Source: Verrucomicrobiia bacterium (GTDB lineage Bacteria > Verrucomicrobiota > Verrucomicrobiia > Limisphaerales > CAIMTB01). From it: a stretch of DNA of 64,000 bases. Under the pieces are notes generated by a model. That model was given only the letters and a program-made list of their open reading frames with translations. It did no database searches and was not told the DNA's origin. Within the stretch, counting starts at the first letter, position 1; each line of letters begins with the position of its first letter. Location of the stretch: the NCBI GenBank assembly GCA_019634625.1, contig JAHCBA010000007.1, forward strand, positions 1-64,000, in the 5' to 3' direction. This document shows, one piece after another, positions 5,543-56,130 of this stretch. A program made the position numbers and the translations under genes.

Positions 5543-5605
5543 CCGGAGCACAAGCCTTGCATCCGCCATGGCCGGGGGCAATCGGCATGCCAGGAGCCGG
5601 GCCAT

Positions 5606-5938
5606 CGGAGGGACGAGCTCCGCGAGTCCTCAACCCAATGCTCCACACCCTTTCCCCCCTCCCCGGGAACTCGTACTCAGCCCGAAGGGCGGTACTCGTA
5701 CTCGTCCTCGGACCCGCAGGCACACCCTTTTCGAGCGTCGCCTTGTGGCGGGTGCGATGGGTTCGATCGTGTTCGGACCTCCCGTTCCGCATGCGAACCG
5801 GGCAGGACGATTACGATTACGATTACGAGTACGATTACGGGTACGATTACGAGTACGGGACGAGTACGAGGCCTGCTGCGAAAGACTGAGGTGCGCTGGC
5901 AGGGCGGGGACGTGGGGGCCGGAGCCTGGGTCGGACCC
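5606..5938. repeat. Composite intergenic repeat, copy 1, with hexamer array B
   Basis: This block carries, in order, the module arm GGAGGGACGAGCTCCGCGAG (about 5608-5627), a segment ending in the GCCCGAAGGGC palindrome, a leader (about 5758-5808), hexamer array B at about 5810-5873 (GATTAC, GAGTAC and GGGTAC units), and a trailer with GACTGAGGTGCGC. About 155 bases before the leader and about 50 bases after the array recur almost exactly in the copy at 6148-6450, while the leaders and the arrays between them differ. No gene is supported in this block. Confidence 0.9.
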
Positions 5939-5940
5939 TG

Positions 5941-6018
5941 TTGGGTGTGCGCGCTTTAGCGCGCTTTAGCGTGTCGGGGCGGATTTGGGAGGCTCACGCT
6001 GAAGCGTGTACACCCAAC
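5941..6018. repeat. Inverted pair of GGTGTGCACGCTTTAGCGTG-type arms
   Basis: The left arm TTGGGTGTGCGCGCTTTAGC contains an extra internal GCGCGCTTTAGC duplication. The right arm reads ACGCTGAAGCGTGTACACCC. Each arm has its own inner palindrome (CACGCTTTAGCGTG type), and the two arms are inverted relative to each other, so a hairpin or cruciform is possible. The same pair is at 6464-6530 and in the tandem repeats at 26.7 kb; a single arm is at about 13564-13583. Confidence 0.85.
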
Positions 6019-6044
6019 GGACGCTCCGAGTTCATCACCCTCGC

Positions 6045-6147
6045 TTCACTCCGGACGGACGAGCTCCGCGAATCCGCATTCCATCGCTCCCCTCCCCTGC
6101 GGCCTCGTGGAACTCGGCCCTCCGATTTCACCACCCTGCTTCACCTT
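6045..6147. repeat. Dispersed module with CCCTCCGA/TCGGAGGG hairpin
   Basis: This is a copy of the dispersed module, with GACGAGCTCCGCGAATCC, GCGGCCTCGTGGAACTCGGC, and CCCTCCGA separated by about 22 bases from TCGGAGGG. The hairpin loop (TTTCACCACCCTGCTTCACC) is the reverse-complement counterpart of the loop in the module copy at 17.8 kb. It runs directly into composite repeat copy 2. Confidence 0.8.
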
Positions 6148-6460
6148 TCGGAGGGACGAGCTCCGCGAGTCCTCAACCCAATGCTCCACACCCTTTCCCC
6201 CCTCCCCGGGAATTCGTACTCAGCCCGAAGGGCGGTACTCGCACTCGTCCTCGGACCCGCAGGCACACCCTTTTCGAGCGTCGCCTTGTGGCGGGTGCGA
6301 TGGGCTTGATCATTCTCGAAGCTCCAATTCAGCGTGGGAACTGGGTAGGGGAATCACGATTAAGATTAAGATTAAGATTAAGATTACGAGGCCTGCTGCG
6401 AAAGACTGAGGTGCGCTGGCAGGGCGGGGACGTGGGGGGGGGCAGAGGCTGGGTCGGACT
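6148..6460. repeat. Composite intergenic repeat, copy 2, with hexamer array C
   Basis: About 155 bases are nearly identical to copy 1 (module arm, then the GCCCGAAGGGC palindrome segment). Then comes a diverged leader ending GGGAACTGGGTAGGGG, a short array C of GATTAA units (about 6355-6388, five to six units), and the same trailer, CTGCTGCGAAAGACTGAGG. The hexamer type differs from copy 1 although both flanks match, so the array seems to be replaced or homogenised independently of its flanks. Confidence 0.9.
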
Positions 6461-6463
6461 CTG

Positions 6464-6530
6464 TTGGGTGTGCACGCTTTAGCGTGTCGGGGCGGATTTG
6501 GGAGGCTTACGCTGAAGCGTGTACACCCAA
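6464..6530. repeat. Second inverted arm pair (CACGCTTTAGCGTG type)
   Basis: The arms TTGGGTGTGCACGCTTTAGC and ACGCTGAAGCGTGTACACCC face each other across about 20 bases. The sequence is close to the pair at 5941-6018, without that copy's extra internal duplication. The bases from 6531 to 6601 hold a decayed module fragment and no gene. Confidence 0.85.
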
Positions 6531-6601
6531 CGGACGCTCCGATTTCACCACCCTCACTTCACTCCGCGAGTTCTCAATCCATGGCACCCCTTCCTCGCCC
6601 C

Positions 6602-13499: not shown

Positions 13500-13720
13500 C
13501 AACAACTTTACAACTTGTCAGACTTTTTGCTGTTGACTGGGACTTGGGCAGCGGCGGTTCGGTTTCCACGCTTTAGCGTGTCGGGACTTGGGAGACTGGA
13601 ACGTGTCGAGTTAATAGGTCTGACATATTCTTGTTGACCACTGGAGTTAGTAGGTCTGACACATTAATGTTGACCATTCTTATAATAATGAGCCAGGCGT
13701 CTTGCTGTTGACGACGGCTT
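13500..13720. repeat. Cluster of REP-like GTCTGACA...TGTTGAC repeats
   Basis: Four short repeats occur here: about 13516-13537 (TGTCAGACTTTTTGCTGTTG), 13617-13638 (GGTCTGACATATTCTTGTTG), 13653-13674 (GGTCTGACACATTAATGTTG) and a partial copy at 13695-13712. Two more lie at 16.9-17.0 kb. A single CACGCTTTAGCGTG palindrome is at about 13564-13583. The block is AT-richer than its surroundings. Such repeats often flank REP-associated tyrosine transposases, but no transposase is present. The stretch 13403-14119 holds no convincing gene apart from these elements. Confidence 0.75.
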
Positions 13721-26200: not shown

Positions 26201-26555
26201 ATTGGGCCGGGAGCGGGGTGGTGGCGTCGGCACGGACGCGGAACAGTTCGAGCCCGGGCTGGATCGGGACCTGGAAGGTGACTTCGGTGGTGCCGGGTTC
26301 CGGATGGATCACCGCGCGGGGCACCCAGAACGCCAGATCCTCCCGGGTGCAGCTTTCGAGGAGAAGACGGGCGACGCCGGCGGGCGCGGAGGCACGGAGG
26401 ATCAGGTCGGGTCCGCGATGCTCGATCGAGAGGATCCGCGGCGGGGCATCGGGTTCGGGTGCCTCGACATCGGCGCGGAGCGCAGCGGCCGTGACGATCA
26501 CAATGGCAAGGGCCGCCAGACGGGCCCAACCGTGGAACAACAACGCGTGCTTCAT
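23292..26555 (-). CDS. Large exported beta-propeller domain protein
   Basis: About 1087 residues from the MKHALLFHGW start, which gives a signal peptide ending near AALRA; an upstream ATG at 26588 is less likely. The core, beginning ESDIWVVRGNTLYFFNQYRG, matches the secreted beta-propeller family (PF09826-like). It carries LVIVD-like repeats such as IDISDPDDPSIEG, FDLSDPARPVARS and FDVSDPANPTLLA. The N-terminal 150 residues look like an Ig/fibronectin-type domain. It is probably periplasmic or secreted. No catalytic motif is recognised and no operon partner is adjacent. Confidence 0.83.
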   Translation of the reverse strand: MKHALLFHGWARLAALAIVIVTAAALRADVEAPEPDAPPRILSIEHRGPDLILRASAPAGVARLLLESCTREDLAFWVPRAVIHPEPGTTEVTFQVPIQPGLELFRVRADATTPLPAQFYAGPSEFAGEPASETPGPDAFRADSAAPPAAEDGGGAREVVESDIWVVRGNTLYFFNQYRGFQRIDISDPDDPSIEGTFPLPGMGEQMYVLDSGPVILLAHDPCRQWGFDAESAVILVDAHAATPLELARLPLPGRVVESRLVGTALYVATETWRESADGRGAWESGTWISSFDLSDPARPVARSPLWYPGSGNVVTATDRFLFVAITDYSRPWPWRSDLRVADISAPDGTMTDFARIPLPGRVADKFKIDLAGDVLRVVTEATESSTNTRWVTVLETYRLADPRSVPAVPYTPLDRLELARGERLFATRFDGDRAYIVTFLVIDPLWVIDLSDPAHLRITGELEIPGWSTYIRPLGDRLVTLGIDDTSGWRVAVQLFDVSDPANPTLLAKVPLGENASWSEANHDEKAFGIFPDAGLLLVPVSEWTTTESRHGVQLIDFDRDSLTARGRLEGDSLVPRRATFHQDRVLAVSGRQLTSADIRDRDQPRITATLELAYPVERLLVAEAHLLEFAGNSLRIRPNDTDADTDATSAVAIELDGPPVIGAFLRGSTLELLQGRPAQVSWNQQPGTDHWIATTNPGVLVASSWDASQLPALSRRGESRAPTDQTWLYDFRAFPIDARTTVWATSASGQFWGWGRPMWTDALVAPFPDARRPGIWFPWWYGSTRWLVAVAHDPDGLPAIASQTQLGSDTENAGEVFAVGPLIYSSRHRHESEVVGTNTFVETVWFPPEPRPSADGDDGSEPKPDQGEWRRVTNSYPVLRWWSRHELDVTDFSGDPARPGLRPPVSLPGELAGVSHQGALLYTVATRNPDEKSPSRVILEALAYDGLAAHLVDGLEIADHALGQIHVLSIHAEAGLAYLARGGWQADARQRLEVWRLDDDGRWTAGSTQPLPAVPGELRRFGNVLLARSGGELSLFDISAPDLPAPLPSQPPPACFGGELSRGDGDRDRGIWLPLGEYGSVRVGP

Positions 26556-26674
26556 ACGTCCTCCCGGTTCGATCACGACTCCATCCAATCACCGAACCGG
26601 CGGAAAGCCAAGGGGGATACCGGGCGGGGGCAAGGGGGGGGCGCATCTCAAGCTTCCTGGAACCTGCCCAAGCC

Positions 26675-26940
26675 ACCCCGACACGCTAAGGCGTGTACAC
26701 CCAACGAAGTCCGGTCACCCCTGTGCCCCCACCGTCCCCGCCCCGCCAGGACGGCTGGGTGTGCACGCTTCAGCGTGAGCCTCTTATTCCACCCCGACAC
26801 GCTAAAGCGTGTACACCCAACGAAGTCCGGTCACTCCTGTGCCCCCACCGTCCCCGCCCCGCCAGGACGGCTGGGTGTGCACGCTTCAGCGTGAGCCTCC
26901 TATTTCACCCCGACACGCTAAAGCGTGTACACCCAACGAA
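26675..26940. repeat. 116-bp tandem repeat carrying inverted CACGCTAAAGCGTG arms
   Basis: Two full units with a 116-base period begin at 26675 and 26791, and a third, truncated unit begins at 26907. Each unit holds an ACACGCTAAAGCGTGTACAC arm, a conserved spacer, and the inverted arm GGGTGTGCACGCTTCAGCGT. The units differ at only a few bases. This shows the arm pair can be amplified in tandem. Confidence 0.93.
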
Positions 26941-26974
26941 GATCGACCACCCCCGGTGCCCCCACGTCCCCACG

Positions 26975-27270
26975 ATGGGTTCGCTCTTGTTCGGACCATG
27001 CCATTCCGCGTGGGAACTGGGGAGGGCGATTACGAGTACGATTACGAGTACGAGTACGAGTACGGGTGCGAGGGCACTTGAAAGAAGGTGGGATGCGGCC
27101 GAGGGGCGGCCGTGCATCCCGGAGTTGGGGTAGAGGCGCGAGCTTCGCGAAGCATCGCCTCGGAGGGCCGGGTTCCACGAGGCCGCAACGATGGGGTGCG
27201 TTGGGATGAGGACTCGCGGAGCTCGTCCCTCCGATCTGCTGCCTCCTCACCGACAACCTGGGGATGCGGC
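26975..27270. repeat. Composite element with hexamer array E and a full dispersed module
   Basis: The leader at about 26978-27026 (GATGGGTTCGCTCTTGTTCG ... GTGGGAACTGGGGAGGG) matches the leader of array B at 5.76 kb. Array E (about 27028-27066) has GATTAC and GAGTAC units. A module follows from about 27112 to 27268, opening GTGCATCCCGGAGTTG and closing CAACCTGGGGATGC in inverted relation, with GGTTCCACGAGGCCGCAACG and GACTCGCGGAGCTCGTCCCT inside. The nucleotidyltransferase-like gene begins only about 20 bases after it. Confidence 0.88.
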
Positions 27271-28044: not shown

Positions 28045-28245
28045 AGGTCCGATTCCGATTCCGATCACGATCACGATCACGATCACGATCACGATCACGA
28101 TCACGATCACGATTTCGATTTCGATTTCGATGGAAAGGGCCGGGTTCCACGAGGCCGCAACGGTGTGGAGCGTTGGATCGAGGACTCGCGGAGCTCGTCC
28201 CTCCGATGGGCTGCCTCCTCACCCACAACTCCGGGATGCACCGTG
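28045..28245. repeat. Hexamer array F (GATCAC/GATTTC) with dispersed module
   Basis: Array F (about 28050-28130) starts with GATTCC units, continues with about eight GATCAC units, and ends with three GATTTC units. It is followed by a partial module with GGTTCCACGAGGCCGCAACG, GACTCGCGGAGCTCGTCCCT and the terminal AACTCCGGGATGCACC arm. It fills the gap between the convergent nucleotidyltransferase-like and aldehyde dehydrogenase genes. Confidence 0.92.
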
Positions 28246-34865: not shown

Positions 34866-35345
<480 letters not shown>

Positions 35346-55692: not shown

Positions 55693-55964
55693 GCGCGAGC
55701 GACAGACGGCGGATGCGCCAAGCCATCCCTGTTGAAGCGACGCAAGCCTCGGCGAAGCGAAGCCGCCGAAACCGCAGAAAAGGTCGAGGCAGGTCAGTCG
55801 GTTGCCGGCCGGTGCGTTCGTCATGGGAGCCAGGCGCTTCTGATCTCCTTGGCCGGCGATTTGAACCCGACGGCATCGGACCGGGTGGGCGCGCTCATGG
55901 GAAGAAATCCTACCCGTTGAGTGGAGTCCGCATAGGAAAATGCTTGCTGACGAATCGCAACCCC

Positions 55965-56130
55965 GTGCATCCCGGAGTTCTGGGGAGTGGTGCGAATTTC
56001 GCGAGGCGTCGCTTCGGAGGGCCGGGTTCCACGAGGCCGCAAGGGTGTGGCGCGTTGGGTTGAGGACTCGCAGAGCTCGTCCCTCCGATTCGCGGCCTCC
56101 TCACCCGCAACTCCGGGATGCACCCGGATT
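55965..56130. repeat. Dispersed module, complete copy
   Basis: The module is bounded by CATCCCGGAGTTCTGGG (about 55969) and CGCAACTCCGGGATGCACC (about 56106-56124) as inverted ends. It holds GGTGCGAATTTCGCGAGGCG, GGTTCCACGAGGCCGCAAGG, and GACTCGCAGAGCTCGTCCCT. It has no hexamer array. The 270 bases from 55693 to 55964 hold no gene. Confidence 0.85.

Follow-up and report, generated by a model that had tools for sequence, protein, structure and literature searches.

The window, a stretch of 64,000 nucleotides from the genome of a Verrucomicrobiia bacterium, contains a short tandem array at positions 26673-26971. Tandem Repeats Finder resolved it into 2.6 copies of a unit with a period of 116 bp and 93% matches, in agreement with the original prediction of a tandemly repeated 116-bp unit carrying paired arms. 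Each unit consists of a 68-bp REP doublet and a 48-bp spacer. The array begins with half a pair (26682-26705), in which a single REP arm on the minus strand (26682-26695) is followed by the tag TACACCCAAC (26696-26705), and continues with two full pairs, both of which were delimited from the sequence, a mismatch search, the orientation of the arms and folding. The first is a head-to-head REP doublet, or REPIN, at 26754-26821 and is made up of the tag GCTGGGTGTG, a hairpin at 26764-26777, an inner spacer, a second hairpin at 26798-26811 and the minus-strand tag GTTGGGTGTA; it is predicted to fold as one 68-nt DNA hairpin (-21.3 kcal/mol, z -7.2). The second head-to-head doublet lies at 26870-26937, with hairpins at 26880-26893 and 26914-26927. 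Flank comparison placed the spacer of the unit at 26706-26753 and its repeat at 26822-26869. When CACGCTAAAGCGTG was searched at up to two mismatches, 18 matches were found in the window against a mean of 0.28 in shuffled sequence, and no Rfam family matched within the window. Beyond the array, a separate repeat of approximately 140 bp (27110-27250) has more copies in the window (e.g. 55963-56104) and in many of the loci fetched from the genome. Repeats with a 6-bp unit (ACGATT, ACGAGT and CGATCA among others) were also observed as arrays at 1212-1384, 5807-5870, 27027-27072, 28062-28113 and 35021-35231, some of these arrays being within composite repeats.

The arms occur at three further places in the window. 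Arm pairs expected to stand alone near 5.94 and 6.46 kb were located at 5940-6018 and 6463-6531, and the single arm expected near 13.57 kb at 13567-13580. The left arm of the first of these doublets has a small internal duplication (CGCGCTTTAGCGCGCTTTAGCGTG), and the second carries the full tags GTTGGGTGTG and GTTGGGTGTA and has a folding z of -8.3. The single REP (13557-13580, plus strand) consists of the tag GTTCGGTTTC and the hairpin CACGC(TTTA)GCGTG; adjoining it is a 36-bp direct repeat of 1.9 copies (13608-13676). Comparison of the window and the fetched loci with blastn showed that the two lone doublets sit in a larger intergenic composite repeat (5605-6566) whose two tandem copies, 5605-6053 and 6148-6566, are 84% identical and bear one REP doublet each. 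This repeat, of about 450 bp per copy, has relatives in five other loci (L279, L290, L292, L294 and L295). Long flanks, corresponding to a composite repeat of approximately 450-500 bp, are common to seven doublets, of which two are in the window and the other five outside it, so that part of the spread is that of larger composite repeats and not of the doublet alone. Flank comparison also showed that many dispersed doublets have, on their left, sequence related to the spacer of the array unit, and the array units themselves are homologous to arrays and to single copies elsewhere in the genome.

Across the genome (6,743,180 bases in 88 contigs, 97% complete) the exact palindrome CACGCTNNAGCGTG is present in 154 copies, against none for the reversed-pattern control, and the arms are therefore not confined to the array. 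The oriented form CACGCTTYAGCGTG, defined by the TTYA orientation, accounts for 150 of the 154, and 44 pairs of palindromes lie 10-40 bp apart. The anatomy of the arms was determined from 106 arms, identified at no more than one mismatch, in 25 loci totalling 465,184 bases, namely the window and stretches that were mostly chosen for holding arms. Each arm is an oriented unit with a 5' tag, GTTBGGTGTV, followed by a 5-bp stem, CACGC/GCGTG, that encloses a TTYA loop. In this sample 93 of the 106 arms have GGTG at the tag position, and 99 have a TTYA loop. This conserved tag outside each palindrome, which was absent from the original prediction, gives the arms both their orientation and their identity. 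Adjacent arms are head-to-head with the tags outside in 43 of 46 cases, the other three being head-to-tail, and the start-to-start spacing within the 43 doublets is 33-36 bp. Tandem arrays resembling BIMEs, with steps of 100-120 bp, were found in six places in the same sample. Intact doublets are predicted to fold as one long DNA hairpin (z -6.2 to -8.3), as is, less strongly, the doublet with the internal duplication (z -4.6).

These features are those of REPs (repetitive extragenic palindromes), a known class of very small repeats that form hairpins and are probably copied within bacterial genomes by a borrowed enzyme: a short stem-loop in many copies, a GTAG-like tag on one side (here the variant GGTG) and a mainly extragenic position. 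The inverted doublets, whose spacer and arms fold into one hairpin, correspond to REPINs, and the tandem reiteration of REP pairs with conserved spacers corresponds to BIME-like arrays. In Escherichia coli, BIMEs are mosaics of paired REPs and other motifs that are sometimes arranged in tandem; the present REP sequence, tag and spacer differ from theirs. According to the text of Di Nocera et al. (2013, PMC3733652), GTAG REPs have short loops, many of them TY, are found mostly as head-to-head dimers and form clusters in which they are reiterated together with flanking DNA. Members of the PVC superphylum are among the hosts given there; in O. terrae (Verrucomicrobia) GTAG repeats are abundant, and one of its families is mostly GTGG. 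The same text describes REPtrons, in which REPs flank a RAYT gene, and notes that these may be missing. The present arms share with the superfamily, as described there, short palindromes, a one-sided tag, short loops, head-to-head dimers with the tags outside, tandem clusters and intergenic location. As far as the text of that paper describes the superfamily and its 28 families, they differ in having GGTG at the tag position and a conserved GTTB in front of it. In Bertels and Rainey (2011, PMC3116915), REPINs are inverted REP doublets with a spacer that form one hairpin, the doublet as a whole being what is repeated. The present doublets are likewise inverted, bear a spacer and fold into one hairpin, but, relative to REPINs as that source portrays them, the family has no cognate RAYT (REP-associated tyrosine transposase) found in its genome, is locally amplified in tandem and is embedded in composite repeats. 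The palindromes were not found in the text of the part of the literature searched. The REP class, REPINs and the link to RAYTs are already known, and the present arms add another member with a GGTG tag.

Strong hairpins between genes could be kept for gene expression, as bidirectional transcription terminators or RNA stability hairpins, and spread by recombination. The hairpins are indeed predicted to be strong in RNA as well as in DNA, and T runs follow the arms in one relative at the level of the order (G039). However, no terminator-like site, defined as a stem followed by a T run, was found in 26500-27250. Genes were predicted with a crude codon-usage caller (coding fraction 0.80) in loci picked for holding arms, and on this basis no predicted gene covers 22 of the 26 arm clusters, three of which are at the edge of a stretch. 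In the other four, the distance to the 5' end of the longest frame is no more than about 230 bp, and premature starts are frequent there with a caller of this type. Among the 19 clusters with two neighbours, eight are between codirectional, six between divergent and five between convergent genes, as compared with 56, 18 and 20, respectively, of the 94 gaps longer than 100 bp used for comparison. The arm clusters show no pull to gene ends, and a role in termination or RNA stability would leave both the outer tag and the head-to-head rule unexplained. We consider this explanation improbable.

The same class of hairpin is present in relatives. One genome per species was compared, and the oriented palindrome was found in 11 of 58 genomes, namely those of 57 relatives and that of the window; it was absent from all four congeners searched. 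Palindrome pairs were detected in at least 118 stretches of named genomes of the Planctomycetota, Verrucomicrobiota, Acidobacteriota, Sumerlaeota and others. Immediately outside the palindrome, most arms in the 81 of these loci that were inspected have a fixed tag, GTTGGAGTT being the commonest, with variants according to lineage. No such tag accompanies the pairs in a Kapaibacterium (L099) and a Pseudomonas (L123), which probably have no relation to the others; in the former (Kapaibacterium sp. contig VFFB01000159.1) the same palindrome forms a tandem array with extended CC/GG ends and without a REP tag. As these genomes were found by searching for that very palindrome, the spread of CACGC over several phyla is partly an effect of the search.

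In the Phycisphaerales genome Emb289P4bin17, two CACGC(TTTA)GCGTG doublets directly adjoin a RAYT gene (L224:1318-1926), one on either side. With the product of this gene as the query, a search of 29 genomes revealed a close group with 48-54% identity at nine further places in eight genomes, and several genes of this group have the CACGC palindrome, or one that differs little from it, in their flanks. A Verrucomicrobia locus (L252, the same as L093) similarly has a RAYT flanked by REPs with the GGTG tag and CACGC stem. Four proteins of this group, referred to here as clade A, were scanned with NCBIfam REP_Tyr_transpos (cut-off 80 bits); two passed (88.2 and 84.4 bits) and two were below it (78.9 and 70.2). 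Pfam Y1_Tnp passed for two of the four, and the first protein matched the TnpArep structure 4er8 in the PDB (E 3e-8). The clade-A proteins share an NHYH and a Y motif. In these matches, in the motifs and in the flanking of their genes by REPs they resemble RAYT/TnpA-REP proteins, as far as these are covered in PMC8266576 and PMC6006769. RAYTs and REPs co-evolve, according to the part of PMC8266576 consulted, and the material consulted from PMC3686654 describes a history that REPs and RAYTs share with their hosts and that includes RAYT loss.

A profile was built from ten clade-A proteins, and with it the clade was detected in 34 of 387 genomes of the phylum Verrucomicrobiota. The flanks (170 bp) of 40 clade-A genes, from Verrucomicrobiota and other phyla, were then compared with control stretches. 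They contain 120 REP-like hairpins, which occur at 35 of the 40 loci and on both sides of the gene at 27; none was found in the flanks of the other five, and the controls contain five such hairpins in two loci. One locus (L296) duplicates another (L248); it is counted among the 40 and was dropped from the sets of 39 used below. Flank sites chosen by no criterion other than the tag and the TTYA loop numbered 114; the 5-bp stem was perfect in 95 of them, and 22 different stems were represented. Elsewhere in these loci, in approximately seven times as much sequence, there were 24 tag-and-loop sites, 19 of them with a stem. The tags beside clade-A RAYTs are GTAG, GGAG or GGTG, the last of these being found at L252, L299 and L250. 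Integron attC sites end in RYYYAAC and GTTRRRY and go together with an integrase in the same genome; the outer ends of the arms fit these motifs by eye, but an attC identity was set aside as the tag varies and recurs beside RAYTs.

Tag and stem were compared on a tree of the 39 clade-A proteins, in which 13 of 36 inner branches are well supported. For the 28 rows with GTAG, GGAG or GGTG (six of 34 rows, with other tags, were left out), the tag classes require five changes against a mean of 11.0 after shuffling, and none of 1000 shuffles was as low. The CACGC stem, in contrast, requires five changes for the five rows that have it, which is as scattered as chance, and more than one stem is present in 20 of the 29 loci that have at least two REPs. 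As the tag follows the RAYT tree and the CACGC stem does not, the tag appears to go with the transposase while the stem is free. The view that the identical palindrome in several phyla is one conserved sequence was rejected, as its five rows are unclustered; the frequency of CACGC in this set is moreover inflated, as 10 of the 39 loci belong to genomes that a search for the palindrome had brought up.

The freedom of the stem also bears on whether a DNA-binding or nucleoid protein recognises the paired palindromes, as has been proposed for BIMEs of E. coli. The fixed start-to-start spacing of the arms in the doublets would fit binding of this kind. However, in the wider class the stem sequence varies freely while its pairing holds, a pattern more in keeping with recognition of a folded strand than of a double-stranded sequence, and the lack of the palindrome in the four congeners also argues against a protein site. 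This explanation is therefore very unlikely.

Despite the association of clade A with such hairpins in relatives, no clade-A RAYT was found in the window's genome, either by protein search or by profile search at E 1e-40. The protein search found only a RAYT of another clade (clade B, 35% identity; C13:72595-73089, L258 and L276) and one Y1 protein of approximately 360 aa. No CACGC arms lie beside the clade-B gene, which was rejected as the mobiliser. A same-genome RAYT, which is a usual trait of REPs and not a required one, was accordingly not seen for this family, and this sets it apart from RAYT/TnpA-REP systems in that the clade-A gene is present in relatives. The genome does have 30 Y1_Tnp hits at E <= 0.001, compared with 3 to 8 in the four congeners, and many of these (e.g. 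C56:15170-15490, L177) are in frames of approximately 330-390 aa, several at contig ends. Such numbers could suggest that the element derives, in miniature form, from another transposon of the genome, for example from this amplified Y1 element or from a DDE element. However, none of the 30 Y1 loci has an arm at zero or one mismatch (two scattered matches at two mismatches were found), yet arms flank clade-A RAYTs elsewhere, and the outer ends of the element are the REP tag. The Y1_Tnp copies were therefore rejected as mobilisers, and descent from another transposon is highly improbable. Arm matches in 19 wider stretches around Y1_Tnp genes were likewise only at two mismatches. Conversely, no Y1 genes were detected around arm pairs with a home-made profile, an insensitive one that derived from other Y1 proteins and missed the clade-A RAYT between the arms of L093.

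With no clade-A RAYT found and no arms near the 30 Y1 loci, the REPs look orphaned, or else the gene is missing from the assembly. The RAYT gene may have been lost, or may be located in the unassembled part; the latter could arise because genes between repeats tend to break assemblies. In the sample of 387 Verrucomicrobiota genomes, clade A was present in six of the 16 with at least two palindromes and in 28 of the 371 others (Fisher p 0.0012, with the threshold of two palindromes chosen after the table was seen). The remaining ten of the 16, the window's genome included, do not have clade A.

Taken together, the arms are very probably REPs of the GTAG superfamily, arranged as head-to-head REPINs and in local BIME-like arrays, and we infer their dispersal by a clade-A RAYT. 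A clade-A RAYT (TnpA-REP, HuH/Y1) would have spread the doublet by binding the REP hairpin on single-stranded DNA and cutting at the tag. The tandem units of 100-120 bp would have arisen later by local duplication, through recombination, slippage or multimeric intermediates. At present the family may be a relict, or an enzyme other than its own may move it in trans, or the missing part of the assembly may contain its RAYT. Of the functions originally suggested, a small mobile unit is the one upheld, by the REP/REPIN anatomy and the hairpins that flank RAYTs. The capacity to form hairpins is borne out by folding predictions; it is best read as making the arms a putative substrate of a single-strand transposase, and not as a function in itself.

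A broader scheme, which we offer tentatively and regard as possible rather than probable, is that of one REP/RAYT lineage extending over the PVC superphylum, Acidobacteriota and Sumerlaeota. In this lineage the transposase would read only the tag and the TTYA loop, the stem would be interchangeable and CACGC would have been reached repeatedly, and the window's genome would hold a large orphan population that was amplified in tandem without a RAYT of its own.

The repeat has been identified, and both its orientation and the likely class of its enzyme have been assigned. For the REPs beside one clade of RAYTs in little-studied phyla, a simple rule emerges, in which the tag and the TTYA loop are fixed and the stem is free. 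If the RAYT is truly absent, this genome would provide a natural case for how long REP populations last, and how they expand in tandem, without their transposase.
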